The notes below the pieces were generated by a model. It was not told the origin of the DNA. It saw nothing but the letters and a program-made list of their open reading frames with translations, and searched no databases. The translations under genes and the position numbers were made by a program. From positions 1,240,001-1,304,000 of the forward strand of contig NZ_LT629688.1 of NCBI RefSeq assembly GCF_900101785.1: a stretch of 64,000 bases of DNA, in the 5' to 3' direction. This document shows positions 7,760 to 20,445 of the stretch, in pieces. The DNA comes from Auraticoccus monumenti (GTDB lineage: Bacteria > Actinomycetota > Actinomycetes > Propionibacteriales > Propionibacteriaceae). Within the stretch, counting starts at the first letter, position 1; every line of letters begins with the position of its first letter.

Positions 7760-7967
7760 ACACGTCGGCTGGCACCGGTGCGCGACGAGGCAGCCGGCCG
7801 CTATGCTCACGCTCGACTTCTGCTCGCAGCCCTCCCCGACCGGTCCAGCCGACCGGTCCCGGCGTGCCGGGTGCGGACGTCCGCCGGGTGACGGGGGTTC
7901 CTGGTGGTTCGGAACCCGACCCGCCGCCCGGCGCCCAGCCGCCGCGCACGACCCGAAGAGGACCCCC

Positions 7968-9230
7968 GTGGCGCCCGACCCCGCCTTCGACGAGCACGTC
8001 ATCGAGTCCGGACTGACCGACGGCTACTGGATCCAGGCGGTGGACGTCGACGGCGACGGCCGCCCGGACATCCTGACCTCCGGGCTGAGCGAGGGGCACG
8101 TCTCCTGGTACCGGAACCCGGACTGGAGCAAGCAGCCGATCCACTCCTTCTCCCGACCCGTCTCGCTGGACCAGGGTGACGTCTCCGGCAGCGGGCGGCG
8201 CGACCTGGTCATCTGCCACGACTACGCCCCGACGATGTTCGTCGCCACCCCCGCCGACGGGCGCATCTCCTGGTTGGAGAACCCCGGACCGGCCGGCGGG
8301 GAGTGGACGGCCCGACCGATCGGCCAGCTCGGCTCCACCCACCGGCTCCGGCTCGGCCACTTCACCGACCCCGACCGTCAGCAGCTGCTGGCGCTGCCGG
8401 TCGTCGGCCAGGCATCCGGGCTGGACGCGCTGCACGCACCCATCAAGGTGGTGCTCTACGACCGCCCCGACGACCTCGAGGCGGGGGAGTGGGCCGCGCA
8501 GCCGGTCGACGAGACCAGCTTCCGCGTCATCCACGCCGCCCAGCTGGGCCACTTCGGAGCGCCCTCGCCGGCCGGCCTGGACGCCGTGCTGCTGGCCTGC
8601 GAGGAGGGGCTGGTCTGGTTCGGGGTGGACGGCAGCGGCAGCTGGCAGCGTCACGTCCTGCACACCGGGGAGACGACCCAGCAGGAGCGCACCGGCTACA
8701 AGGGCAGCGGCAACATCGCCATCGGCCGCCTCGGGGACGACCCGTACGCCTTCATGGCCGCCGTCGAGCCCTTCCACGGCAACACCCTCGCGCTGTACAC
8801 CCGGGAGGGGACCCACGACGGCGTCGTGGGTGGCACCTGGGAGCGCCGGGTGCTCGAGGTGTTCGGCGAGCCCAACGAGGCCGGCGAGGGGCCGGCGCAC
8901 CACGTGGTCTGCGCCGACTTCGACGGCGACGGCGAGGACGAGCTGCTGGTGGCCCTGCGCGGTCCGATGCCGCACCAGGGGGTGTTCCTGTACAAGTTCA
9001 GCGACGTCCGCGCCGGGGTGTACGAGAAGACGCGGCTCTCCGAGGCCTCGGCCGCCCGGATCGCGGTGGCCGACTTCGACGGGGACGGCCGACTGGACTT
9101 CGCCACGCTCGGCTACTACGTGCCCGGCTACTTCCTCTGCGAGGACCCCCAGCTGGTCCTGTTCCTCAACCGCTACGGCGCGGCGGTCCCCGGCACGCCG
9201 GCCATCCCGGCGCTCCCGCTGGGTGGCTGA
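7968..9230 (+). CDS. FG-GAP/VCBS repeat protein
   Basis: A 420-aa protein with FG-GAP/VCBS-type repeats, predicted to fold as a beta-propeller with calcium-binding loops. The loops are DVDGDGRPDILTSG (near residue 24), DFDGDGEDELLVAL and DFDGDGRLDFATLG (C-terminal part), with intermediate blades containing GHFTDPDRQQLL and AQLGHFGAPSPAGLDAVLL. GTG 7968 is chosen because GAAGAGGA (7955-7962) precedes it. Unlike most VCBS proteins it has no signal peptide or transmembrane segment, so it appears cytoplasmic. It ends 2 nt before the channel gene, so the two are probably co-transcribed. The biochemical role is unknown; a protein-interaction or carbohydrate-binding scaffold is possible. Confidence 0.85.
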   Translation: MAPDPAFDEHVIESGLTDGYWIQAVDVDGDGRPDILTSGLSEGHVSWYRNPDWSKQPIHSFSRPVSLDQGDVSGSGRRDLVICHDYAPTMFVATPADGRISWLENPGPAGGEWTARPIGQLGSTHRLRLGHFTDPDRQQLLALPVVGQASGLDALHAPIKVVLYDRPDDLEAGEWAAQPVDETSFRVIHAAQLGHFGAPSPAGLDAVLLACEEGLVWFGVDGSGSWQRHVLHTGETTQQERTGYKGSGNIAIGRLGDDPYAFMAAVEPFHGNTLALYTREGTHDGVVGGTWERRVLEVFGEPNEAGEGPAHHVVCADFDGDGEDELLVALRGPMPHQGVFLYKFSDVRAGVYEKTRLSEASAARIAVADFDGDGRLDFATLGYYVPGYFLCEDPQLVLFLNRYGAAVPGTPAIPALPLGG

Positions 9231-9232
9231 CG

Positions 9233-9964
9233 GTGACCGAGCGCCGCGACCCGATCCCGGCCGACCAGGCCGTGGCCCCGGAGGAGCGGGCTGCGGGGGA
9301 GCGGGCGCGGGAGCACCACGCCGGTCCGGTGGCGCCCGCCGTCCCCGGCGGGCACGAGCCCGCCCCCGTCGACCGGGACCGCGACCTCGACCGCTTCCTC
9401 ACCTTCATCGACGCCATCGTGGCCATCGCGGTGACCCTGCTCATCCTGCCGCTGGCCGAGATCGCCGACGAGTTCCCCGAGCGGTCGCTGACCGAGCTCC
9501 TCGCCGCCCACACCGGGGAGGTCTTCAACTTCCTGCTCAGCTTCCTGGTGATCACCCAGCTCTGGTTCGCCCAGCACCGGATCGTGCGCACCGTCGTGGT
9601 GCCGGACCCGGTGGTGATCCGCTACCTCGTCGCCTGGGCGCTGACCGTGGTCGTGCTGCCGGTGCCGACGGCCCTGGTGGCCGCCTCCAGCGAGGGCGAC
9701 ATGACCGAGCCGCTGTACATCGCCACCATGGTCCTGAGCAGCCTCTGCCTCACCCTGACCGCCCTGAGGGTCGCCGCCCGGCCCGCCATCGGGGACGGCC
9801 GGGCGCCGACGGACCCGCTCAGCTCGATCACCGCCACGGCCACCATGGTGCTGGCGCTGCTGATCTCGCTGGTCTTCCCCCTCGCCGGCTACCTCCCGCT
9901 GCTGCTGCTCCTGCTCAGCGGTCGGGTGGCCCGGCTGATCCGCTCCCGGCTGGCCGCGCGGTGA
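9233..9964 (+). CDS. TMEM175-family membrane protein
   Basis: A 243-aa membrane protein of the TMEM175 (DUF1211) family of potassium-selective channels. After a charged, disordered N-terminus of about 55 residues the first helix carries the family motif, here RFLTFIDAIVAIAVTLLILP. The usual signature is RxxxFSD; the Ser is replaced by Ile while the Asp is kept. Five further hydrophobic segments follow (FNFLLSFLVITQLWF, YLVAWALTVVVLPVP, PLYIATMVLSSLCLTL, ATMVLALLISLVFPLAGYL and LLLLLLSG), giving the six helices of one bacterial subunit; these assemble as tetramers. GTG 9233 lies 2 nt after the FG-GAP stop codon, implying translational coupling. The altered FSD motif makes potassium selectivity uncertain. 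Confidence 0.82.
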   Translation: MTERRDPIPADQAVAPEERAAGERAREHHAGPVAPAVPGGHEPAPVDRDRDLDRFLTFIDAIVAIAVTLLILPLAEIADEFPERSLTELLAAHTGEVFNFLLSFLVITQLWFAQHRIVRTVVVPDPVVIRYLVAWALTVVVLPVPTALVAASSEGDMTEPLYIATMVLSSLCLTLTALRVAARPAIGDGRAPTDPLSSITATATMVLALLISLVFPLAGYLPLLLLLLSGRVARLIRSRLAAR

Positions 9965-10163: not shown

Positions 10164-11069
10164 GTGTTCCCACCCGGATCCGTCCGTGTCGCCGCCGTGC
10201 CCAACGCGTGGGTGAACGACGACCTCCCCGAGCTCGGACGGGGGACCTCGTTCGAGCAGATCATCAGCGAGATGGCCCTCGCCGGGTACGAGGGCACCGA
10301 GCTGGGGAGCACCTACCCCAGCGACGCCGCCACCCTCAACGCCGCCCTCGCCGTCCGCGGGCTCTCCCCCTCCGGTGGCTGGGTCTCCACCTGGTTCGCC
10401 TCCCGGGGTGGGGCCTACGAGCAGACCCTCGAGGCGTTCCGCGCCCAGATCCCGTTCTTCACCGCGATCGGGTTGCAGGACGTCTACGTGGCCGAGGTGA
10501 CCGGGGCCGTGCACCAGCAGCCCGTGCCAGCGCTGGCCAACCGTCCGGTCCTCGACGACGCGCAGTGGGACGCCATGGTCCGGGGTCTGGGTGAGATGGG
10601 CCGGATCGCCACCGAGCACGGGCTGCGGATCAACTACCACCACCACACCGGCACCGGGGTGCAGTCGTCGGAGGACATCGACCGGCTGATGGCCGACACG
10701 ACGCCCGGCGAGACCTTCCTGCTGCTGGACACGGCGCACCTGCTCGTGGGCGGCGGCGACCCGATGGAGGTGCTGACCAAGCACGAGGGCCGGATCGGGC
10801 ACGTGCACCTGAAGAACCTCCGCCAGCCGGTGCTGGACCGGATGCACGAGCAGTCGCTGAGCTTCTGGGACGCCCTGCGCCAGGGCATCTTCACCGTGCC
10901 CGGCGACGACGAGGGGTGCATCGACTTCGCCCCGCTGCTGCGGAAGCTGGCCGACGACGGCTGGTCCGGCTGGTTGGTCGTGGAGGCCGAGCAGGACCCG
11001 GCGACCGCGCACCCGCTCGAGGTCTTCCGCGCCGCCCGCCGCCACATCGCCGACCTGGCTGGTCTCTGA
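10164..11069 (+). CDS. sugar phosphate isomerase/epimerase, IolE-like
   Basis: A 301-aa TIM-barrel protein of the sugar phosphate isomerase/epimerase (AP endonuclease 2-like) family, closest in pattern to 2-keto-myo-inositol dehydratase IolE. Visible metal-site elements are GYEGTELGS near residue 40, INYHHHTGTGV in the middle, LLLDTAHLLVGGGDP, GHVHLKNLR and the C-terminal WLVVEAEQDP; Glu, Asp, His and Glu ligands from these strands bind a divalent metal. Members dehydrate or epimerise keto-sugars and inosose. The start is GTG 10164, six nt after AGAGGA. It is the first gene of an operon with glycoside hydrolases and a GMC dehydrogenase, so its substrate may be the keto-sugar formed by that dehydrogenase. 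No other inositol gene is nearby, so iolE is not assigned. Confidence 0.85.
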   Translation: MFPPGSVRVAAVPNAWVNDDLPELGRGTSFEQIISEMALAGYEGTELGSTYPSDAATLNAALAVRGLSPSGGWVSTWFASRGGAYEQTLEAFRAQIPFFTAIGLQDVYVAEVTGAVHQQPVPALANRPVLDDAQWDAMVRGLGEMGRIATEHGLRINYHHHTGTGVQSSEDIDRLMADTTPGETFLLLDTAHLLVGGGDPMEVLTKHEGRIGHVHLKNLRQPVLDRMHEQSLSFWDALRQGIFTVPGDDEGCIDFAPLLRKLADDGWSGWLVVEAEQDPATAHPLEVFRAARRHIADLAGL

Positions 11070-11070
11070 C

Positions 11071-13758
11071 GTGGCCACCGCCGAGGACGGCCGTCTGACC
11101 GAGGCCAACACCGGGACGGCGCCCTGGCGGCGGTGGGGCCCCTACCTGTCGGACCGGCAGTGGGGCACCGTCCGCGAGGACACCTCGCCGGGCGGTGACG
11201 CCTGGGACTCCTTCCCCCACGACCACGCCCGCTCCCGCGCCTACGGGTGGGGCGAGGACGGGTTGCTGGGGATCAGCGACGACAGCCAACAGCTGTGCTT
11301 CGCCCTGGCCCTGTGGAACGAGGCCGACCCGATCATCAAGGAGCGGCTGTTCGGCCTGACCAACAGCGAGGGCAACCACGGCGAGGACGTCAAGGAGTAC
11401 TACTTCTACCAGGACTCCACACCGACCCACTCCTGGATGAAGGGGCTGTACAAGTACCCGCAGGCCGCCTACCCCTACGAGGACCTGCTGCGCACCAACG
11501 CCGCCCGGGGCAAGCAGGAGCCCGAGTACGAGCTGGTCGACACCGGGATCTTCGACGACCAGCGCTACTTCGACGTGGAGGTGGTCTACGCCAAGGCCGG
11601 CCCCGAGGACGTGCTGGTGCAGGTCACCGCCACCAACCGGGGACCCGACCCGGCCGCGCTGCACCTGCTGCCCACGTTGTGGCTGCGCAACACCTGGTCC
11701 GGGGACGAGCAGGCCCCGCGGCCCCGGCTGACCGCCGACCCGGCCAGCCGCCAGGTCCTGGTCGACTGCCCCGACCTCGGCCCCTACCGCCTGATCTGGG
11801 AGGGCGACGTCGACGTCCTGGCCACCGAGAACGAGAGCAACTGGGCGCGTCTGGCCGGCGGCACCAACCCCACGCCGTACGTCAAGGACGGCATCAACGA
11901 CGCCGTCGTCACCGGCCGCCCCGAGACCGTCGACCCCGGGCTGACCGGCACCAAGATCGCCCTGCGCCGGCGCGCGGTCGTGGGGGCCGGGGAGTCGGTC
12001 ACCATGCGGCTGCGGCTCACCACCGACGCCCCGCGGTCCGGCCTGGGCGAGGACGTCGACCAGGTGCTGACCACGCGCCGGCAGGAGGCCGACGAGTTCT
12101 ACACCTCCATCACTCCGCCCACGGTGGGCGCCGAGCCCGCGCGGGTGATGCGGCAGGCCCTGGCGGGGATGCTGTGGTCCAAGCAGTTCTACTGCTACGA
12201 CCTGGACCGGTGGCTGAGCCAGCGCGGGGTGCACCCGCTGCGCGACGAGGCCGGTCTCGACCACCGCAACGCCCGCTGGTTCCACATGGTCTGCGGCGAC
12301 ATCATCTCGATGCCCGACTGCTGGGAGTACCCCTGGTTCGCCGCCTGGGACCTGGCCTTCCACACGATGTCGCTCGCGATGGTCGACACCACCTTCGCCC
12401 GTGACCAGCTCCAGCTGCTCCTCGGCGAGCACTACCTCCACCCGTCGGGGCAGATCCCGGCCTACGAGTGGAACTTCTCCGACGTCAACCCGCCGGTGCA
12501 CGCGCTGGCCACGCTGTTCAGCCACGTGCAGGCCGTCGACACCGGTGCCGAGGACGACCACGCCTTCCTCAGCGACACCTTCGCCAAGCTGGCGCTCAAC
12601 TTCACCTGGTGGGTGAACCGCAAGGACGTCAACGGCGCCAACACCTTTGAGGGTGGCTTCCTCGGGCTGGACAACATCGCCGTCTTCGACCGCAGCGCCG
12701 CCCAGCTCCCCACCGGCGGCCGTCTGGAGCAGGCCGACGGCACGGCCTGGATGGCGCTGTACTGCCAGAGCATGCTGGAGCTCTCCCTCGAGCTAGCCAG
12801 GACCGACCCCGGCTACGAGGGGACCGCCCTGAAGTACCTGGAGCACTTCCTCTACATCTGCGCCGCGATGGAGCGCGGTGACGGCATGTGGGACGAGGAG
12901 GACGGGTTCTTCTACGACCAGCTGCGCCTGCCCGACGGATCCGGTGAGCGGCTGCGGGTCCGGTCGATGGTCGGCCTGGTCCCGCTGTGCGCGGTGACCG
13001 TGGTCCCGGCCGAGTCGTTCGGGGTTCTCGACGACCGGCTGGCCGGGTTCATGCGCCGCCACCCGGACCTGCTCGGCCAGATCTCCGACCCCCTGCTGCC
13101 CGGGGTCGGGAACCGACGGATCCTCACGCTGCTGGACGAGGACCGGTTGCGGAGCGTGCTCGGCTACCTGCTGGACGAGGAGGAGTTCCTGAGCCCGCAC
13201 GGGGTCCGCGCGCTCTCGCGCTTCCACCGCGACCACCCCTTCGCCATGGAGGTCCAGGGCCAGCAGTTCGGTGTGGGCTACCTCCCCGGCGAGTCCGACA
13301 GCGGCATGTTCGGCGGCAACTCCAACTGGCGCGGCCCGGTCTGGATGCCGGTGAACTTCATGATCATCCGGGCGCTGCTGCAGTACTACCTGTACTACGG
13401 CGACGACTTCACCGTCGAGCTGCCGACCGGCTCCGGCCAGCAGCACACCCTGTTCGAGGTGGCCGCGGACCTCGCCGACCGGCTGGTGTCGATCTTCGTG
13501 CCCGACGAGGGCGGCCGGCGTCCGGTGTTCGGCGGGGTCGAGCTGTTCCAGACCGACCCGCACTGGCGGGACAACCTGCTGTTCTACGAGTACTTCCACG
13601 GTGACGACGGCGCCGGGATCGGGGCCTCGCACCAGACCGGGTGGACCGGGCTGGTGGCCAAGCTGGTCCAGCTCTTCGGCACCATCGACGCCGCCACCGT
13701 CCTCGGCGACACCCGGACCCACCCCTCCACGACGCTGTTCCGCCGTGATGTCGGCTGA
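11071..13758 (+). CDS. glucosidase, GH63/MGH1-like
   Basis: An 895-aa protein of the MGH1-like glycoside hydrolase group related to GH63 (alpha,alpha)6-barrel glucosidases. The N-terminus has [18 protein letters not shown], then [19 protein letters not shown] and [20 protein letters not shown]. The barrel contains [37 protein letters not shown] and [16 protein letters not shown]. The catalytic acids are expected among the Asp and Glu residues of these loops but cannot be pinned without alignment. No signal peptide is seen, so it is probably cytoplasmic. The GTG start lies 1 nt after the isomerase stop codon, and the 3' end overlaps the GH13 gene by 11 nt, so the genes are coupled. The substrate is likely a short alpha-glucoside or glycosylglycerate. 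Confidence 0.85.
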
Positions 13759-15289
13759 CGCCGGGGCGGCCGCGGACCGGCTGAACCCGCTGCTGTACCA
13801 GGTGAACACCCGGGTCCTGCTGCACGAGCTCGGACTCGACCTCGGTCGCGCGGTCACCCTCGACGACGTCCCCGACGCCTTCCTCGACGACATCGCCACC
13901 CGCGGGTTCGACTGGGTGTGGATGCTCGGCGTGTGGCAGACGGGGCCGGCCGGGCGTGCCGTCTCCGCGACCGAGCCCGGGTGGCTGGCGGGGTACCGCG
14001 AGGTGCTGCCCGACTTCACCCCCGAGGACGTCGTCGGGTCCCCGTTCGCCGTCGTCGACTACGCCGTGCACACCGACCTCGGCGGCGACGCGGCCCTGGC
14101 CCGGCTCCGGACCCGGCTGGCCGGGCGCGGGCTGCGTCTGCTGCTGGACTTCGTGCCCAACCACACCGCGCCCGACCACCCCTGGCTGGAGGACGCCCCG
14201 CACCGCTACGTCGTCGGCTCCGAGGCCGACCTGACGGCGCAGCCGCAGAACTGGTTCCGGGTGGGGGAGCGGGTGGTCGCGCACGGCCGCGACCCCTACT
14301 TCGACGGCTGGCCCGACACCGCCCAGCTCAACTACCGCCACCCCGACCTGCGGGCGGCGATGACTGCGGAGCTGGAGGGGGTGGCCGACCGCTGCGACGG
14401 GGTCCGGTGCGACATGGCGATGCTGCTCGAGCCGGAGGTCTTCGCCGCCACCTGGGGTGACCGCTCGCTCCCGCCCGACGGCGCCACCCCGGTGGACACC
14501 GCGTTCTGGCCCGGGGCCATCGCCGCGGTGCGTCGCCGCCACCCCGGCTTCCTGCTGATGGCGGAGGTGTACTGGGACATGGAGTGGCAGCTCCAGCAGC
14601 ACGGGTTCGACCTCACCTACGACAAGCGGCTCTACGACCGCCTCCGCAGCGGCGAGGCGTCCGCCGTCCGCGGGCACCTGATGGCCGACCCCGACTTCCA
14701 GCACCGCTCCGCCCGGTTCCTGGAGAACCACGACGAGCCGCGGGCGGCGGCGATCCTCCCTGACCTCCTCCAGCACGAGGCGGCTGCGGTGGTGACCTTC
14801 CTCGGCACGGGGCTGCGGTTCCTGCACGAGGGCCAGCTGGAGGGGCGACGGGTCAAGGCGCCGCTGCACCTGCGACGGCGTCCGGTCGAGGAGCCCGACC
14901 CCGCCGTGCGGGACCTCTACGAGCGGCTGCTGGCCGTGCTCGCCGACCCGGTGCTGCGCACGGGCCACTGGCAGCTCCTCGACACCGCCCCGGCCTGGCC
15001 GGGCAACCCCACCTCCGACGCCTACGTGGTCACCGGGTGGTCGACGGCGCCGGGGCTGCCGCTGCGCTGGCTGGTGGCGGTCAACCTCAGCGCCGAGCAG
15101 GCCCAGACCCGGGTCGTGCTGAGGGGTCTGCTGCCCGACGCCGGCACCCTGCGGCTGACCGACCGGCTGCACCCCGGCACCGTCTACGACCGCGACGGGG
15201 CCGACCTCGCCGCCGACGGGCTCTTCCTCGACCTGCCGGCGTCGGGCTGCAACGTCTTCGCGGTCTCCCCCGTGGAGGAGCCGACGTGA
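13748..15289 (+). CDS. GH13 alpha-amylase family enzyme
   Basis: A 513-aa (beta/alpha)8-barrel enzyme with all four GH13 signature regions: region I DFVPNH (D134-H139), region II GVRCDMAML with the nucleophile Asp222, region III AEVYWD with the acid/base Glu273, and region IV LENHDEPR with the transition-state Asp329. The catalytic triad is complete, so it should be active. The N-terminal stretch LYQVNTRVLLHELG resembles GH13 members acting on trehalose-like or sucrose-like substrates. A C-terminal beta-domain follows. No signal peptide is visible. ATG 13748 overlaps the upstream gene by 11 nt. The exact specificity (hydrolase, transferase or phosphorylase) cannot be told from motifs. Confidence 0.88.
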   Translation: MSADAGAAADRLNPLLYQVNTRVLLHELGLDLGRAVTLDDVPDAFLDDIATRGFDWVWMLGVWQTGPAGRAVSATEPGWLAGYREVLPDFTPEDVVGSPFAVVDYAVHTDLGGDAALARLRTRLAGRGLRLLLDFVPNHTAPDHPWLEDAPHRYVVGSEADLTAQPQNWFRVGERVVAHGRDPYFDGWPDTAQLNYRHPDLRAAMTAELEGVADRCDGVRCDMAMLLEPEVFAATWGDRSLPPDGATPVDTAFWPGAIAAVRRRHPGFLLMAEVYWDMEWQLQQHGFDLTYDKRLYDRLRSGEASAVRGHLMADPDFQHRSARFLENHDEPRAAAILPDLLQHEAAAVVTFLGTGLRFLHEGQLEGRRVKAPLHLRRRPVEEPDPAVRDLYERLLAVLADPVLRTGHWQLLDTAPAWPGNPTSDAYVVTGWSTAPGLPLRWLVAVNLSAEQAQTRVVLRGLLPDAGTLRLTDRLHPGTVYDRDGADLAADGLFLDLPASGCNVFAVSPVEEPT

Positions 15290-15367
15290 GCCCTCGTCCC
15301 GGCCGCAGGCCGCCCGCCGACCCCGACGTCCCCCACCCCGCGCCCCACCTCCCCCGGAAGGCCGACC

Positions 15368-17224
15368 GTGCCCGCTGAGACCGACCACGCCACCGCCGCC
15401 AGCACCCTCTACGACGCGCTCGTCGTCGGTTCCGGGGTCAGCGGCGCCATCATCGCCCGTTCCCTCGCCGAGCGCGGTCTGCACGTGCTCGTGGTGGAGG
15501 CCGGGCCGGGGGAGGAGCTGTCGGTGGCCGACTACGACTCCTACCTGACCCGCTTCTACTCGGCGGCGGCCAAGGAGAACAACTCCGCCTACGAGGTGAA
15601 CCCCAACGCCCCGATGCCCCGGTCCCCCGACGTCCGGCGGCTGCAGGCCGGCCACCCGGACTCCACCGGCTACCTGGTCCAGAACGGGCCCTACGAGATG
15701 GACAGCGTCTACACCCGGGTGCTGGGTGGCACGACGATGCACTGGGAGGGCAAGGCCATGCGCATGCTCCCCGAGGACTTCGAGATGCGGACCCGGTTCG
15801 GGCAGGGGCGTGACTGGCCCATCGGCTACGACGACCTCGAGCCGCACTACCGCCGGGCCGAGCGCGAGCTGGGGGTGTCGGCCGACGTCGAGGACCAGAC
15901 CTTCTACGGCATCACGTTCCCGCCGGACTACGTGTTCCCGATGCACGGGCTGCCGCCGTCCTACCTGGACTCGATCCTGGCCCGGGACCTCGACGGCACC
16001 GTGATCCAGCTCGAGGACACCGCCTGCACGGTGTCGGTGCGCCCGACCGCCCAGGCCCGCAACTCGATGCCCAACGCGGCCTACGACGGCGGCCGTGGCT
16101 ACGTCCCCGTCGGGGCCGTCAGCACCCACCAGATCGACCAGGGCGACCGGTGCCAGGGCAACATCAACTGCGTGCCGCTGTGCCCGGTGCAGGCCAAGTA
16201 CAACGCCCGCAAGACGCTCTCCATCGGGCTCCGCACCGGTCGGATCGACATCCTCACCCAGACCGTCGCCTCCAAGGTGCACGTCGGGGAGGACGGCCGG
16301 ATCAGCCACGTGGACTACCAGGCCTACGGCTCGACGTCCTCACCGGACCACGTCACCGGCTCGCTCCGCGCGACGACGTACGTGCTGGCCGCGAACCCGG
16401 TCGAGAACGCCCGGCTGCTGCTGGCCTCGGGGCTGCCCGGCAGCAGCGGGCTGGTGGGGCGCAACCTGATGGACCACGCCTACCTGCTCACCTGGGCCAC
16501 CCTGCCCGAGATCGCCGGGACGATGAGGGGGTCGCAGTGCACCTCCGGCATCGAGGACTTCCGCTCCGGCGGGTTCCGCAGCCGCCACGCGGCGATGCGG
16601 GTGAGCATCCACAACGACGGCTGGTCCTGGCCCACCGGCTCGCCCTACTCCGACCTGCTGGAGCTGGTGGACGACGGCAACGCCTACGGGGAGACCCTGC
16701 GGCGCCGGGTCGTGGACCGCGTCTCACGCCAGCTGATGCTCTCGTTCATGATCGACCTGCCCCCCGAGCCGAGCAACCGCATCACCGTCGACGGGCGCTA
16801 CACCGACGCCCTGGGCAACCTGCGACCGGTGCTGTCCTACTCGCTGCCGGAGTACACGATGGACGCCGTCTCGGCCAGCCGCCGGGTCTCCCGCCGGCTC
16901 TTCCAGCGGCTGGGGGCCGAGGACAGGACGCACTACGACCCGCTCGACCCCGGCTTCGTCGCCCACCAGGGCGAGGGCTACGTGGTCCGCGGCGGCAACC
17001 ACTGGTCGGGCACCCACATCATGGGCACCTCCAGCCGGGACTCGGTGGTCGACGACCACCAGCGCTCCTGGGACCACGACAACCTCTACCTCGTGGGCTC
17101 CGGCAGCATGCCCAGCATCGGGACCTCGAACACCACCCTGACGCTGGCCGCCCTCTCCTTCCGCACGGCCGACCACATCGCCTCCGCGCTCACCACCCGT
17201 CCCTCCGTCACGATCGGGGCCTGA
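15368..17224 (+). CDS. GMC oxidoreductase with [3Fe-4S]-type cysteine motif
   Basis: A 618-aa flavoprotein of the glucose-methanol-choline family. The FAD-binding motif VVGSGVSGAIIA is near residue 20, and the C-terminal catalytic region has GGNHWSGTHIMGTS followed by GTSNTTLTLAAL, giving the usual His/Asn pair. Residues 262-272 read CQGNINCVPLC; Cys262, Cys268 and Cys272 match the spacing of the [3Fe-4S] ligands in the FAD-glucose dehydrogenase alpha subunit of Burkholderia. This points to a dehydrogenase passing electrons on, rather than an oxidase. It is followed by a ferritin-like protein and a small FAD-SLDH-like subunit, the expected partner. No signal peptide is present and no cytochrome c gene is nearby. 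The sugar oxidised is unknown; glycoside 3-oxidation is one option. Confidence 0.9.
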   Translation: MPAETDHATAASTLYDALVVGSGVSGAIIARSLAERGLHVLVVEAGPGEELSVADYDSYLTRFYSAAAKENNSAYEVNPNAPMPRSPDVRRLQAGHPDSTGYLVQNGPYEMDSVYTRVLGGTTMHWEGKAMRMLPEDFEMRTRFGQGRDWPIGYDDLEPHYRRAERELGVSADVEDQTFYGITFPPDYVFPMHGLPPSYLDSILARDLDGTVIQLEDTACTVSVRPTAQARNSMPNAAYDGGRGYVPVGAVSTHQIDQGDRCQGNINCVPLCPVQAKYNARKTLSIGLRTGRIDILTQTVASKVHVGEDGRISHVDYQAYGSTSSPDHVTGSLRATTYVLAANPVENARLLLASGLPGSSGLVGRNLMDHAYLLTWATLPEIAGTMRGSQCTSGIEDFRSGGFRSRHAAMRVSIHNDGWSWPTGSPYSDLLELVDDGNAYGETLRRRVVDRVSRQLMLSFMIDLPPEPSNRITVDGRYTDALGNLRPVLSYSLPEYTMDAVSASRRVSRRLFQRLGAEDRTHYDPLDPGFVAHQGEGYVVRGGNHWSGTHIMGTSSRDSVVDDHQRSWDHDNLYLVGSGSMPSIGTSNTTLTLAALSFRTADHIASALTTRPSVTIGA

Positions 17225-17227
17225 CCC

Positions 17228-18316
17228 ATGACCCTCCGCCGCATCGCCACCGTCGAGGACCTGCACCAGTACCTGCAGGTCGCCCTCCAGCTCGAGCACG
17301 CCACCATCCCGCCCTACCTCACCGCGCTGTACTCCATGCACCCGGCGACCAACCCCGACGCCAGCCGGGTGATCCGGGTGGTCGCGGTGGAGGAGATGCT
17401 GCACCTGACGCTCGCGGCCAACCTGCTCAACGCCGTCGGGGGCGTGCCCGACCTGACCGCGGACGGCTTCGTGCCGGTCTACCCCTGCCACCTCCCCGAC
17501 GGGGAGGAGGACTTCGAGGTGGGTACCCGCGCCTTCTCGCCGGAGACGATCGAGGGCTTCCTCAAGATCGAGCGACCCGCGGAGGCCGAGGACCAGCGCT
17601 TCGTCGACCGCGAACGCTCCGAGCTGGCGCTGCTGCCCACGGTGGACGCGCACGAGGACGACCTGCACTTCTTCAGCATCGGTGAGTTCTACGCCGAGAT
17701 CGGGGAGGGGCTGGCCCGTCTGCACGCCCAGCTCGGGGACGCGCTGTTCTCCGGCGACCCGGCCCGCCAGGTCGGCCCGGAGTACTACTACTCCGGTGGT
17801 GCGGCGGTCGTGCGGGTCACCGACCTGGACTCCGCCGAGGCGGCGATGCGGGTCATCAGCGAGCAGGGGGAGGGCCTCGGCGGGGGGATCTTCGACGAGG
17901 AGGGCGAGCTCGCCCACTACTACCGCTTCCAGCAGCTGCTGCTGGGCCGCTACTACCAGCCCGGGGACGAGGCGGGACGGCCCAGCGGGCCCGAGCTCGA
18001 CGTGGACTGGAGCGCGGTCTACCCCGTCCTGGCCGACGCGGACTTCACCGACTACACCGGGACCGGGGAGCTCGAGGACGCGGTCCTGGCCCACAGCGCG
18101 GCCTACGGCGCCTTCCTGGCCCGCCTCACCGAGGCCTTCGGCGGGAGCCCGGAGCTGCTGGTCCCGGCGGTCGCCGACATGTTCCGGATCAGGGAGCTCG
18201 CCACGCAGATCATCCGCAACCCGATGCCGGGACGGCCGGGCGTGAACGCGTCGCCGATCTTCCGCGGTCCGGCGCTCGTGAGCGCCGCCGCCGCTGCTGC
18301 CGTGACGGTGGCCTGA
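17228..18316 (+). CDS. ferritin-like domain protein (VioB/RebD-type)
   Basis: A 362-aa protein whose N-terminal half matches the ferritin-like domain of PF12902, found in VioB and RebD iminophenylpyruvate dimer synthases. The helix LEHATIPPYLTALYSM carries the first Glu/His pair, and EEMLHLTLAANLLNAVGG carries the ExxH motif of a di-metal four-helix bundle. The C-terminal part contains VTDLDSAEAAMRVISEQGEG followed by ELAHYYRFQQL, also typical of this family. Stand-alone copies are common next to oxidoreductases and have no proven reaction. It starts 3 nt after the GMC stop codon and is followed after 1 nt by the small-subunit gene. It therefore probably belongs to the same complex or protects it from peroxide; this is inference. 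Confidence 0.8.
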   Translation: MTLRRIATVEDLHQYLQVALQLEHATIPPYLTALYSMHPATNPDASRVIRVVAVEEMLHLTLAANLLNAVGGVPDLTADGFVPVYPCHLPDGEEDFEVGTRAFSPETIEGFLKIERPAEAEDQRFVDRERSELALLPTVDAHEDDLHFFSIGEFYAEIGEGLARLHAQLGDALFSGDPARQVGPEYYYSGGAAVVRVTDLDSAEAAMRVISEQGEGLGGGIFDEEGELAHYYRFQQLLLGRYYQPGDEAGRPSGPELDVDWSAVYPVLADADFTDYTGTGELEDAVLAHSAAYGAFLARLTEAFGGSPELLVPAVADMFRIRELATQIIRNPMPGRPGVNASPIFRGPALVSAAAAAAVTVA

Positions 18317-18317
18317 C

Positions 18318-18815
18318 GTGGCCGAGGACGCGGTGACCACGCCCACCCCGGACGTCGAGGCGGCCTTCCTCGGGCTGTCGGCGACCCTGACCGGCTACTC
18401 CCGCTTCCGGCTGCTCGGCACCGGCCAGGCCGAGCCGTACCTGGCCACGGTCCGCTCGGCGGTCGGCGAGGAGGTCCTCGGCCGGCTGCTCACCGCCTTC
18501 GCGGTGGTGGAGCAGGAGGCGGCCGGCGACCCGGCGGTCCTCGACCGGCGGCTGCGTGCGCTGGTGCTCAGCGACGAGCTGCTGGGGCCGGTCGCGCGCA
18601 ACCTGATCAAGATGTGGTTCGTGGGCACCTGGTACGAGCTGCCCCAGGACTGGCGGGACCGGTTCGCCACCAGGGAGCAGCTCCCCACCCACGTCGTCTC
18701 ACCGGCCTCCTACACCGAGGGCCTGCTGTGGCCCACCATCGGCGCCAACCCGCCGGGGGCCAAGGGCCAGGGGTTCGGCAGCTGGGTCGGCCCGCCCCGC
18801 ATCGAGCTGACCTGA
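18318..18815 (+). CDS. small subunit of a GMC dehydrogenase, FAD-SLDH-like
   Basis: A 165-aa protein resembling the small FAD-SLDH (sorbitol dehydrogenase) or gluconate 2-dehydrogenase subunit 3 type of protein. Diagnostic features are [18 protein letters not shown] near the start, the central [15 protein letters not shown] and the C-terminal [19 protein letters not shown], which wraps the GMC subunit in related complexes. In secreted complexes this subunit carries the twin-arginine signal peptide for both proteins. Here the N-terminus ([13 protein letters not shown]) has none, so the enzyme is predicted to stay in the cytoplasm. It starts 1 nt after the ferritin-like gene. The assignment rests on motif pattern, so an unrelated accessory protein cannot be excluded. 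Confidence 0.72.
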
Positions 18816-18864
18816 CCACGTCAGCACCTGGCACCCACCCGACCGACCCGAGCAGGAGCACCCC

Positions 18865-19407
18865 ATGACCCCGAACGACCCCTACGCGCGGCTGCCCGTC
18901 GTCCCCACCTTCGAGCTGACCAGCTCCTCGGTCCAGGACGGGGCGGCCTGGGCGCCGGCCCAGCTCTCCGGCCTCTTCGGCGTCCCGGGCGGGCAGGACG
19001 TCTCGCCCGCGCTGTCGTGGTCCGGGGCTCCGGCCGCCACCCTCAGCTACGCCGTCACCGTCTACGACCCCGACGCCCCCACCGGGTCGGGGTTCTGGCA
19101 CTGGGCGGTGGCCAACGTCCCCGCGGCGGTGACGTCGCTGCCCGAGGGCGCCGGTGACGAGACCGGTGCGCAGCTGCCCGCCGGGGCCTTCCAGCTGCCC
19201 AACGACGCCCGGATGGCGCGCTACGTCGGCGGCGCGCCGCCGCCCGGCCACGGCCCGCACCGCTACTTCGTCACCGTGACCGCCCTGGACGTCGCCGAGA
19301 TCGGCGTCGCCCGGGACGGCACCCCGGCCTTCCTCGGGTTCACGGTGGCCGGGCACGTCCTGGCCCGCGCCCACCTCGTCGCCACCGCCGAGACCCCGGC
19401 GGCCTGA
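18865..19407 (+). CDS. YbhB/YbcL family Raf-kinase-inhibitor-like protein
   Basis: A 180-aa PEBP-fold protein. The family signature is seen in [32 protein letters not shown] (the DPDAP ligand-binding loop and the H-W pair) and [18 protein letters not shown]. Bacterial members bind phospholipid-like or small anionic ligands, and their roles are poorly defined. No signal peptide is present. It lies 49 nt after the small-subunit gene with its own ribosome-binding site (GAGCAGGAG), so it is the last gene of the operon and is followed at once by a strong terminator hairpin. Its contribution to sugar oxidation is unknown. Confidence 0.88.
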
Positions 19408-19411
19408 GGTC

Positions 19412-19461
19412 GGCAGCGCCCACCACCCGCGCAGGTCCGGCGCGGAGTGGTGGGCGCTGCC
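19412..19461 (+). terminator. terminator of the carbohydrate-oxidation operon
   Basis: A perfect 15-bp stem, GGCAGCGCCCACCAC (19412-19426) with its reverse complement (19447-19461), encloses a 20-nt loop and starts 4 nt after the YbhB stop codon. There is no U-tract. The stem strength and placement make it the clear end of the operon begun at 10164. Confidence 0.75.
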
Positions 19462-19615: not shown

Positions 19616-19996
19616 ATGCAGTACGGCTATCTGGCCTGCGCTCTTGACATGCTCAACGTGCGCGATCTCGACCTCATCGCCCAGGCGCGCGCACTCTGCG
19701 ACGTCCTGGTCGTGGGTGTCCTGACCGACGACGACATCCGTGCCTGCACGGGGCGCGTGCCGGTGATCGGTGTCGAGGAGCGGCTGATCCTGGCCAACCA
19801 CCTGCGCGGTGTCGACCGGGCGGTCATCCACAACGAGGCGGAGTTCGAGCTCCTCTCGGAGTCCATGCTGGTGATCGCGGTGGAGGGCGAGTCCGACTGG
19901 CTCCGACCCGACGCCGACGTGGTGCTGACGCCGGCGATCTTCAGCCTGTCCACCCAGCTGCGGACCGCGCTCGGCGCGGTCCCGCGTTCCGCATGA
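19616..19996 (+). CDS. degenerate cytidylyltransferase-like protein
   Basis: A 126-aa protein with the Rossmann-like nucleotidyltransferase fold of the TagD/GCT group, but without its catalytic signature. Where the next gene has WDMFHVGHLNIL, this one has LDMLNVRDLDLI: both histidines of HxGH are replaced, by Asn and Asp. The C-terminal STKLR-type motif is also missing and the protein is shorter. The strands LVVGVLTDDDI and VIGVEERLILANHL still align with the neighbour. It is therefore probably a pseudoenzyme or regulatory partner. ATG 19616 follows GGGGGAG. The gene overlaps the active paralogue by ATGA (19993-19996), so the two are co-translated. A hexamer TACAGT at 19549 may be its -10 element. 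Confidence 0.8.
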   Translation: MQYGYLACALDMLNVRDLDLIAQARALCDVLVVGVLTDDDIRACTGRVPVIGVEERLILANHLRGVDRAVIHNEAEFELLSESMLVIAVEGESDWLRPDADVVLTPAIFSLSTQLRTALGAVPRSA

Positions 19997-20445
19997 GCGC
20001 GGAGCAGGTCCCCGACGCCGTCGAGACGTCGCGACCCGTCGTGGGCTACGTGCCGGGGGCGTGGGACATGTTCCACGTCGGGCACCTCAACATCCTGCTC
20101 CGGGCCCGCGCCCACTGCGACCGCCTGGTCGTCGGCGTGGTCACCGACGAGGCGCTCTTCGCCGCCAAGCAGAAGCACCCCGTGGTGCCGCTGGCGGAGC
20201 GGATGCGCGTGGTGGCCTCGATCGACGTGGTGGACGACGTCGTGGTCGACCACTCCAGCGACAAGCTCGAGGTGTGGCGCCGGGTCGGGTTCGACATCCT
20301 GTTCAAGGGTGACGACTGGATCGGCACCCCCAAGGGGATCAAGCTCGAGCAGGACATGGCCTCGGTCGGCGTCGACGTGCACTTCTTCCCGTACACGCCG
20401 CACGTCTCGAGCACCAAGCTCCGAGGCCTGGTCCAGAGCCGCTGA
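19993..20445 (+). CDS. cytidylyltransferase-family protein (TagD-like)
   Basis: A 150-aa nucleotidyltransferase resembling glycerol-3-phosphate cytidylyltransferase. The HxGH signature HVGH occurs in GAWDMFHVGHLNILLRAR, followed by VVGVVTDE, the substrate-loop region FKGDDWIGTPKG and a C-terminal SSTKLRGL, the counterpart of the usual ISTT motif. It would transfer CMP from CTP to a phosphorylated alcohol for polymer or glycolipid synthesis. It is coupled by ATGA overlap to the inactive paralogue. A polyprenyl glycosylphosphotransferase gene about 2 kb downstream fits a cell-surface polymer role. The substrate is not defined, so no gene name is given. Confidence 0.88.
   Translation: MSAEQVPDAVETSRPVVGYVPGAWDMFHVGHLNILLRARAHCDRLVVGVVTDEALFAAKQKHPVVPLAERMRVVASIDVVDDVVVDHSSDKLEVWRRVGFDILFKGDDWIGTPKGIKLEQDMASVGVDVHFFPYTPHVSSTKLRGLVQSR

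Follow-up and report, generated by a model that had tools for sequence, protein, structure and literature searches.

A conserved gene triad of GMC flavoprotein, ferritin-like protein and small subunit in Auraticoccus monumenti, and its possible role in cytoplasmic sugar oxidation

The DNA analysed here, referred to as the window, is a stretch of 64,000 nucleotides at positions 1,240,001-1,304,000 of the 4.46-Mb single-contig genome of the actinobacterium Auraticoccus monumenti. It contains three adjacent genes that encode a flavoprotein of the GMC family, a ferritin-like protein of family PF12902 (FER) and a small subunit (SSU) related to the hitchhiker subunits of periplasmic sugar dehydrogenases. 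The triad recurs in four phyla with the cysteines of a [3Fe-4S] site retained in the GMC protein, and no cytochrome c gene was detected beside it. The features of the locus, with the triad given first, are as follows (window coordinates).

15368-17224, + strand: GMC flavoprotein, catalytic subunit (GMC_oxred_C/N; Cys262, Cys268, Cys272 and His125)
17228-18316, + strand: PF12902 ferritin-like protein, FER (212 bits, cut-off 22.3)
18318-18815, + strand: small subunit, SSU, of the FAD-SLDH/FDH/GDH hitchhiker type (profile-profile comparison)
7803-9230, + strand: homologue of the N-terminal beta-propeller of aldos-2-ulose dehydratase (AUDH), start probably at about 7968 (PF22301, PDB 4a7k)
9233-9964, + strand: probable membrane protein, open frame from the GTG at 9233, resembling by reading 2034-2711 of locus L004
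10164-11069, + strand: IolE-type (myo-inosose-2 dehydratase family) TIM-barrel protein (TIGR04379)
11071-13758, + strand: MGH1/GH63-like glycosidase (PF22422, E 5.3e-19; PF03200, E 1.6e-6)
13748-15289, + strand: GH13 alpha-amylase-family protein (PF00128, E 9.9e-12)
18865-19407, + strand: YbhB/PEBP-family protein (PF01161, E 6.1e-37)
19412-19426 and 19447-19461, + strand: perfect 15-bp inverted repeat (-50.7 kcal/mol, z -4.9)

A locus was assigned to type I when it holds GMC, FER and SSU genes, so that the presence of all three is part of the definition. Close homologues of FER were taken from a genome scan (three loci), a phylum sample of 396 genomes, 392 genomes belonging to the genus of G238, and plasmids; the resulting 24 type I loci comprise the window, the three genome-scan loci, 13 loci from other genomes and seven plasmid loci. 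A ferritin-like gene between the GMC and small-subunit genes, pointed out in a first-pass annotation of this DNA, proved to be conserved: the order GMC-FER-SSU and the common strand are identical in 24/24 type I loci, with a GMC-FER gap of -4 to 151 nt. The loci are spread over Actinomycetota, Alphaproteobacteria, Bacteroidota and Cyanobacteriota, and the hosts include metagenome-assembled genomes of Propionibacteriaceae and Nocardioides, as well as Promicromonospora, Rhizobium, Sinorhizobium, Pararhizobium, Agrobacterium, Persicobacter (Bacteroidota) and Gloeothece (Cyanobacteriota). Two loci, L068 and L089, were retrieved by way of GMC instead of FER. Occurrence of the gene is sporadic. A search of 57 relatives gave a FER of more than 50% identity in the window's own genome only and otherwise just weaker homologues, a search of one other species of the same genus returned no FER, and a close FER occurs in 3/396 genomes of the phylum sample. 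For the genus of G238, loci were drawn from 30 of 49 matching genomes, and in 28 of these 30 loci the gene immediately ahead of FER, in the same orientation, encodes a GMC protein.

L083-L085 have the genes in another order, SSU-GMC-FER (type II). A tree built from 48 GMC proteins places the 24 of type I in one clade and sets the 15 of type II likewise on one side of a branch, each with an SH-aLRT value of 100, and five from cytochrome-type loci fall outside; long branches make the deeper joins unsure, and among the 15 type II rows the SSU was seen in three, the remaining ones being labelled from the GMC-FER pair and likeness. Three loci, L069 (5664-7902), L070 and L088, carry a second SSU-GMC pair just ahead of the triad. 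In L069, the small protein of this pair shares 43% identity with the window SSU, and the additional GMC protein (GMC_b) of L069 and L070 retains the cluster cysteines. Based on this arrangement, two GMC proteins may share one FER in these loci.

The closest PDB relatives of the window GMC protein are the FAD glucose dehydrogenase of Burkholderia (BcGDH, PDB code 8hdd, 245.7 bits) and fructose dehydrogenase (7w2j, 208.9 bits). The first-pass annotation had noted three cysteines in the spacing of a [3Fe-4S] site, and the alignment bears this out: Cys262, Cys268 and Cys272 (C-x5-C-x3-C) fall on BcGDH Cys212, Cys218 and Cys222, which are the cluster ligands according to PMC6719666. The three cysteines are kept in 24/24 type I and in 15/15 type II GMC proteins read, and we consider it very probable that the protein holds a [3Fe-4S] cluster. 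In addition, His125 aligns with BcGDH His105, for which the same source describes continuous density with FAD. The source also assigns Cys213 of the periplasmic BcGDH to a disulfide with the small subunit. This position is Gln263 in the window protein and Gln in all 24 type I sequences, and the window SSU has no cysteine, a combination that fits a cytoplasmic site. The pyranose oxidase equivalog of NCBIfam was not reached by the GMC protein (53 bits, cut-off 544.9). The only other GMC match to P0004 in the genome, C1:1852424-1853416, is in two pieces within a 987-residue open frame.

Identification of the small subunit relies on profiles. Single-sequence searches with the window SSU, Pfam included, gave no match, profile searches of the PDB gave weak matches to the fructose dehydrogenase small subunit only (E 0.076 and 0.34), and PF12318 was matched by a single sequence among the 24 SSU members (E 0.0034). 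An hhalign comparison of the SSU profile with that of four small subunits from cytochrome-type loci gave 99.1% (E 7e-19), in agreement with the FAD-SLDH-like subunit proposed in the first-pass annotation. The same annotation had reported no signal for twin-arginine translocation (Tat) and no cytochrome c gene nearby, and both statements hold in the scans made. A simple pattern scan, which is not a formal signal-peptide predictor, found no Tat motif in the window GMC, FER or SSU and in 0/26 SSUs of FER-bearing loci; within the first 60 residues of these 26 SSUs, the top 17-residue mean hydropathy is 1.58. A loose RR pattern matched two GMC N-termini (L074 and L077), but within the FAD-binding fold. 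By reading, three of the four cytochrome-type small subunits have a Tat-like start.

As for cytochrome c, an Azospirillum query found no match at the window's locus, nor did a scan find an open reading frame with two or more CXXCH motifs there. Applied to 28 loci, this query matched only L086 and L087, and L101 was also negative. A scan for open reading frames of at least 100 residues with at least two CXXCH motifs was negative in 24/24 type I loci; of the five cytochrome-type loci, it detected the cytochrome of three and missed that of L086 and L087; a looser scan of picked genes for one CXXCH motif, run with no control, was likewise negative in all 24. The cytochrome-type relatives hold SSU, GMC and cytochrome c genes together, with the cytochrome gene last in L098 and L100 (SSU-GMC-cytochrome c) and first in L086 (cytochrome-SSU-GMC). 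The cytochrome-type SSU-GMC unit of L087, from a Bradyrhizobium plasmid, is surrounded by genes for CHAT-domain, phospholipase D-like and metallo-beta-lactamase (MBL) proteins. A cytoplasmic location of the triad complex is highly likely.

Eight residues of FER (E23, E55, E56, H59, E115, Q213, E215 and H230) are invariant in 29/29 aligned sequences, including two whose neighbouring GMC lacks the cysteines, and this pattern is compatible with a di-iron site for which they are the candidate ligands. FER has no NCBIfam match at E 0.01. Ferritin-like proteins of the VioB/RebD type pair with the amino-acid oxidases VioA/RebO. Few roles are known for PF12902 proteins, and we know of none that serves as the electron-accepting subunit of a flavoenzyme. 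The proposition that all PF12902 proteins are partners of GMC proteins was rejected, as the 13 loci of weaker FER homologues, L027-L039, are all without a GMC match (L038 covers only 3.2 kb). In L103 and L105, mere GMC fragments precede FER.

Genes for sugar processing accompany the triad. The product of 10164-11069 scores 332.6 bits against TIGR04379, above the curated cut-off of 290 for myo-inosose-2 dehydratase, and its profile matches the IolE structures 3cny and 9zmu; it is thus dehydratase-like, and not the isomerase named in the first-pass annotation. An IolE-type gene is present at full length in 22/24 type I loci within the stretches fetched, the exceptions being L026, which has none, and L079, which has a fragment. 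In 18/24 loci there are glycosidases of the GH15, GH63, GH13 or debranching type, some of them 4-5 kb away and on the other strand; in the window, the GH63-like and GH13 enzymes described ahead of the GMC gene are both present on the + strand. A second TIM-barrel gene is found at full length in 17/24 and in part in 1/24 type I loci; no match to it was obtained in the window or its genome, the genome search having been made without a positive control. A pair of MBL and thiamine diphosphate (ThDP) enzymes is encoded in 11/24, once cut by the contig end. The ThDP enzyme of the related loci has indolepyruvate decarboxylase as its best match and lies under the cut-off of all 25 families listed of 46, and the window's genome shows weak ThDP matches only (best 36 bits).

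Upstream of these genes, and not named in the first-pass annotation, which covered 10164-19407, is the gene for the AUDH propeller homologue at 7803-9230; the relevant region begins with this gene, earlier than 10164. The match to PF22301 has an E of 1.9e-42, and that to PDB 4a7k 248.1 bits and an E of 1.2e-72, over residues 16-432 of a chain of 900. AUDH is an enzyme of 2-keto-sugars, and the fungal form takes 2-keto-glucose from pyranose oxidase. IolE dehydrates keto-inositol. The pair of pyranose oxidase and AUDH is named in a reference title in PMC11650716. In Persicobacter (L071), the genes run GMC-FER-SSU-AUDH-glycogen-debranching enzyme-GH63-iolE, all in the same orientation and either overlapping or set apart by small gaps. 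The first-pass proposal of keto-sugar processing is supported insofar as keto-sugar-type dehydratase genes travel with the triad, and on balance the common thread of the neighbours appears to be oxidation, followed by dehydration, of a sugar derived from alpha-glucan. The position of oxidation proposed there, C3, is weakened, since the AUDH homologue in the window points to C2 as at least as likely. Other AUDH homologues, in L116 and L117 (Streptomyces plasmids) and in L118 and L119 (genomes of the same taxonomic order), are found with a UDP-GlcNAc 2-epimerase-like/WecB-like gene and a non-GMC FAD protein, the latter assigned as BBE-type by Pfam in L116, by annotation in L117 and by reading in L118 and L119; the annotation of L116 and L117 also includes an acyltransferase.

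Every gene of the 10164-19407 interval lies on the + strand at the position listed, and the successive intergenic gaps from the iolE-like to the PEBP gene are 1, -11, 78, 3, 1 and 49 nt. The G+C content over 10-20 kb is 0.70-0.74, within a range of 0.695-0.79 for the whole window. The first-pass annotation described one transcript ended by a terminator with a 15-bp stem. The perfect 15-bp hairpin exists (19412-19461), but its role as a terminator is putative because it has no T-run and a consensus terminator scan gave none, and a single transcript is not conserved because two near relatives, L004 and L005, carry the GH13 gene in the opposite orientation. The YbhB/PEBP gene, also missing from the first-pass annotation, occurs elsewhere only in L004 among the triad loci scanned. 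The position of 9233-9964 is occupied by TMEM175-type proteins in L005 and L006, the TMEM175 Pfam match being that of the L006 protein. After the hairpin, 19616-20445 contains two small genes whose products, by reading of the motif, resemble a degenerate and an intact protein of the cytidylyltransferase type.

From the gene content, its conservation, the cysteines and the failure to find an export signal or cytochrome c gene, we infer a complex with a cluster, an acceptor, a substrate, a position of oxidation and a product as follows. GMC, FER and SSU would assemble into one cytoplasmic sugar-oxidising complex, and that the three form a complex is likely. The glycosidases (GH13/GH63/GH15/debranching) would release a sugar from alpha-glucans or alpha-glucosides, and hydride from this glucose-type sugar would pass to the FAD of GMC and onwards, as electrons, to the [3Fe-4S] cluster. 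The SSU may hold and protect the cluster in the same way as the hitchhiker subunit of the Burkholderia enzyme, but without being exported. FER takes the position that cytochrome c has in the relatives and would be the likeliest electron acceptor, probably through a di-iron centre at which oxygen or peroxide is reduced; we put its role as acceptor at slightly below even. The resulting keto-sugar would then be dehydrated by the IolE-type and AUDH-type proteins. In the window, a 2-keto product is favoured over a 3-keto product; oxidation at C2 is a tentative assignment, and oxidation at C3 is rather unlikely. As a whole, the reading of a cytoplasmic three-subunit sugar dehydrogenase with FER in the place of cytochrome c, handing its keto-sugar to dehydratases, is evenly balanced. 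In a bolder version, a di-iron FER has replaced a multiheme cytochrome as the electron-accepting subunit, so that the complex is a soluble sugar oxidase or peroxidase of the cytoplasm and supplies 2-keto-sugars to a dehydratase pathway of bacteria from at least four phyla; this version is speculative and on the unlikely side.

Several observations weigh against the cytoplasmic three-subunit dehydrogenase. Most type I loci were picked by means of FER, and several are near kin, which makes the adjacency counts biased and non-independent. In the reverse search, with GMC at E <= 1e-60, 4/396 genomes were recovered; three have an adjoining FER, all of them already known, and in the fourth, G284 (GMC 38% identity), no FER is present within its 7-kb contig. 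The loci of weaker homologues free of GMC have already been mentioned, and FER homologues with no GMC gene directly upstream also occur at L064 and L065. AlphaFold2 models computed from four sequences were too poor for use, both for FER (pLDDT 31.5) and for SSU (mean pLDDT 53.8). At least one cysteine (one to three) is present in 13 of the 26 SSUs counted, and the IolE-type protein of Gloeothece (L101, 1182-2279) starts with a signal-like hydrophobic stretch. The AUDH gene was found in only 3/24 type I loci, those of the window, L004 and Persicobacter, and with 475 residues the window protein is without the C-terminal half of fungal AUDH. To these must be added two loci, L102 (Rhizobium johnstonii) and L104 (Methylorubrum), where FER adjoins a GMC that does not have the three cysteines. 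The first-pass annotation had named the same gene order without the cysteines as counter-evidence. None of the 24 type I loci is of this kind; the distant pairs of L102 and L104 lack the cysteines, and the adjacent small gene, which precedes the GMC gene, has no match to SSU. FER evidently does not need the cluster there. Both pairs are plasmid-borne and have genes for S8 peptidase, phospholipase D-like and SIR2 proteins and for toxin-antitoxin systems in their vicinity.

The cysteine-less pairs also speak for the alternative that fares best, namely that FER is no electron acceptor and instead converts what the flavoenzyme has produced, or peroxide, in the way that VioB/RebD-type proteins act after amino-acid oxidases; oxygen, quinone or some other carrier would then reoxidise GMC. 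Genes for PF12902 proteins adjoin those for LodA/GoxA-type quinoprotein oxidases in Azospirillum (L106) and, according to PMC4417212, in fungi, so that oxidases of more than one kind are accompanied by this family; moreover, a heme-binding FMP-type protein is encoded in the module C locus L069, and also in L070 and L088. An FER of this kind leaves unexplained why the cysteines and the SSU persist in 24/24 type I loci with no detected cytochrome c, and we regard it as the less probable role, although one with appreciable weight. Less probable again is oxidation of glycosides at C3 as in Agrobacterium, with the IolE-type and second TIM-barrel proteins serving as 3-keto-glucoside eliminase/hydratase. 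The known C3 route combines a flavoenzyme with a Mn-dependent TIM-barrel eliminase (PMC10628242), for which the second TIM-barrel gene, with its frequency among the type I loci, would be a counterpart. No PDB match named eliminase was obtained for either TIM-barrel protein (limits E 1e-8 and 0.01), and the window, while it shows no second TIM barrel by the search described above, has the AUDH homologue. Finally, a flavin-dependent inositol dehydrogenase in an inositol route with IolE as a true dehydratase is improbable: the IolE-type protein is the sole one in the genome above the curated cut-off and its gene mostly stands beside the triad, but inositol is probably handled by a separate iol cluster at 2.108-2.114 Mb (IolD 900.9 and IolB 261.4 bits, both over cut-off; IolE-like 142.4 bits; a kinase-like gene by reading), which places iolB/iolD about 0.86 Mb from the triad, the glycosidases and AUDH do not fit such a route, and the ThDP enzyme of related loci is below the cut-offs of the families listed.

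With its presence in four phyla, its retained cysteines and the absence of a detectable cytochrome, the triad offers a direct test case for a ferritin-like electron acceptor in the cytoplasmic dehydrogenase proposed above. The accompanying genes of the IolE and AUDH types suggest a sugar route in which hexoses are oxidised and dehydrated, and if a soluble, cytochrome-free Fe-S sugar oxidase is indeed encoded, it would be of interest for glucose sensors. We found no description of the GMC-FER-SSU gene set in the open-licence papers searched, nor a route of this type credited to bacteria. A study of the Rhizobium etli extracellular proteome (PMC9855851) lists, under amino acid metabolism, a locus tag whose number may fall in the range of the triad genes.

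Among characterised systems, the closest are the FAD glucose dehydrogenase of Burkholderia cepacia and the fructose and sorbitol dehydrogenases of acetic acid bacteria, which consist of GMC, hitchhiker and cytochrome c subunits. The GMC fold, the cysteine spacing, the position of the FAD-linked His and a homologous small subunit are shared with these complexes. In contrast, Tat export and cytochrome c are two defining features of those complexes, and no Tat motif or cytochrome c was found for the triad, Gln replaces the disulfide Cys, the gene order is different, and the unit includes a ferritin-like protein with dehydratase genes alongside. The fungal pyranose 2-oxidase and AUDH of the cortalcerone route have in common with the window a sugar-oxidising GMC flavoprotein next to an AUDH propeller homologue, but here the proteins are bacterial with no export signal seen, the flavoprotein is of the Fe-S dehydrogenase type, only the propeller domain is present, and an IolE-type dehydratase is added. 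With the 3-keto-glucoside pathway of Agrobacterium, the similarity lies in flavin-dependent sugar oxidation followed by TIM-barrel elimination chemistry; the differences are the absence of an eliminase match, a TIM barrel of the IolE family and a ferritin-like partner. As for VioB/RebD-type proteins, the PF12902 domain is likewise encoded beside a flavoenzyme, whereas the partner of FER is a GMC protein together with its small subunit.

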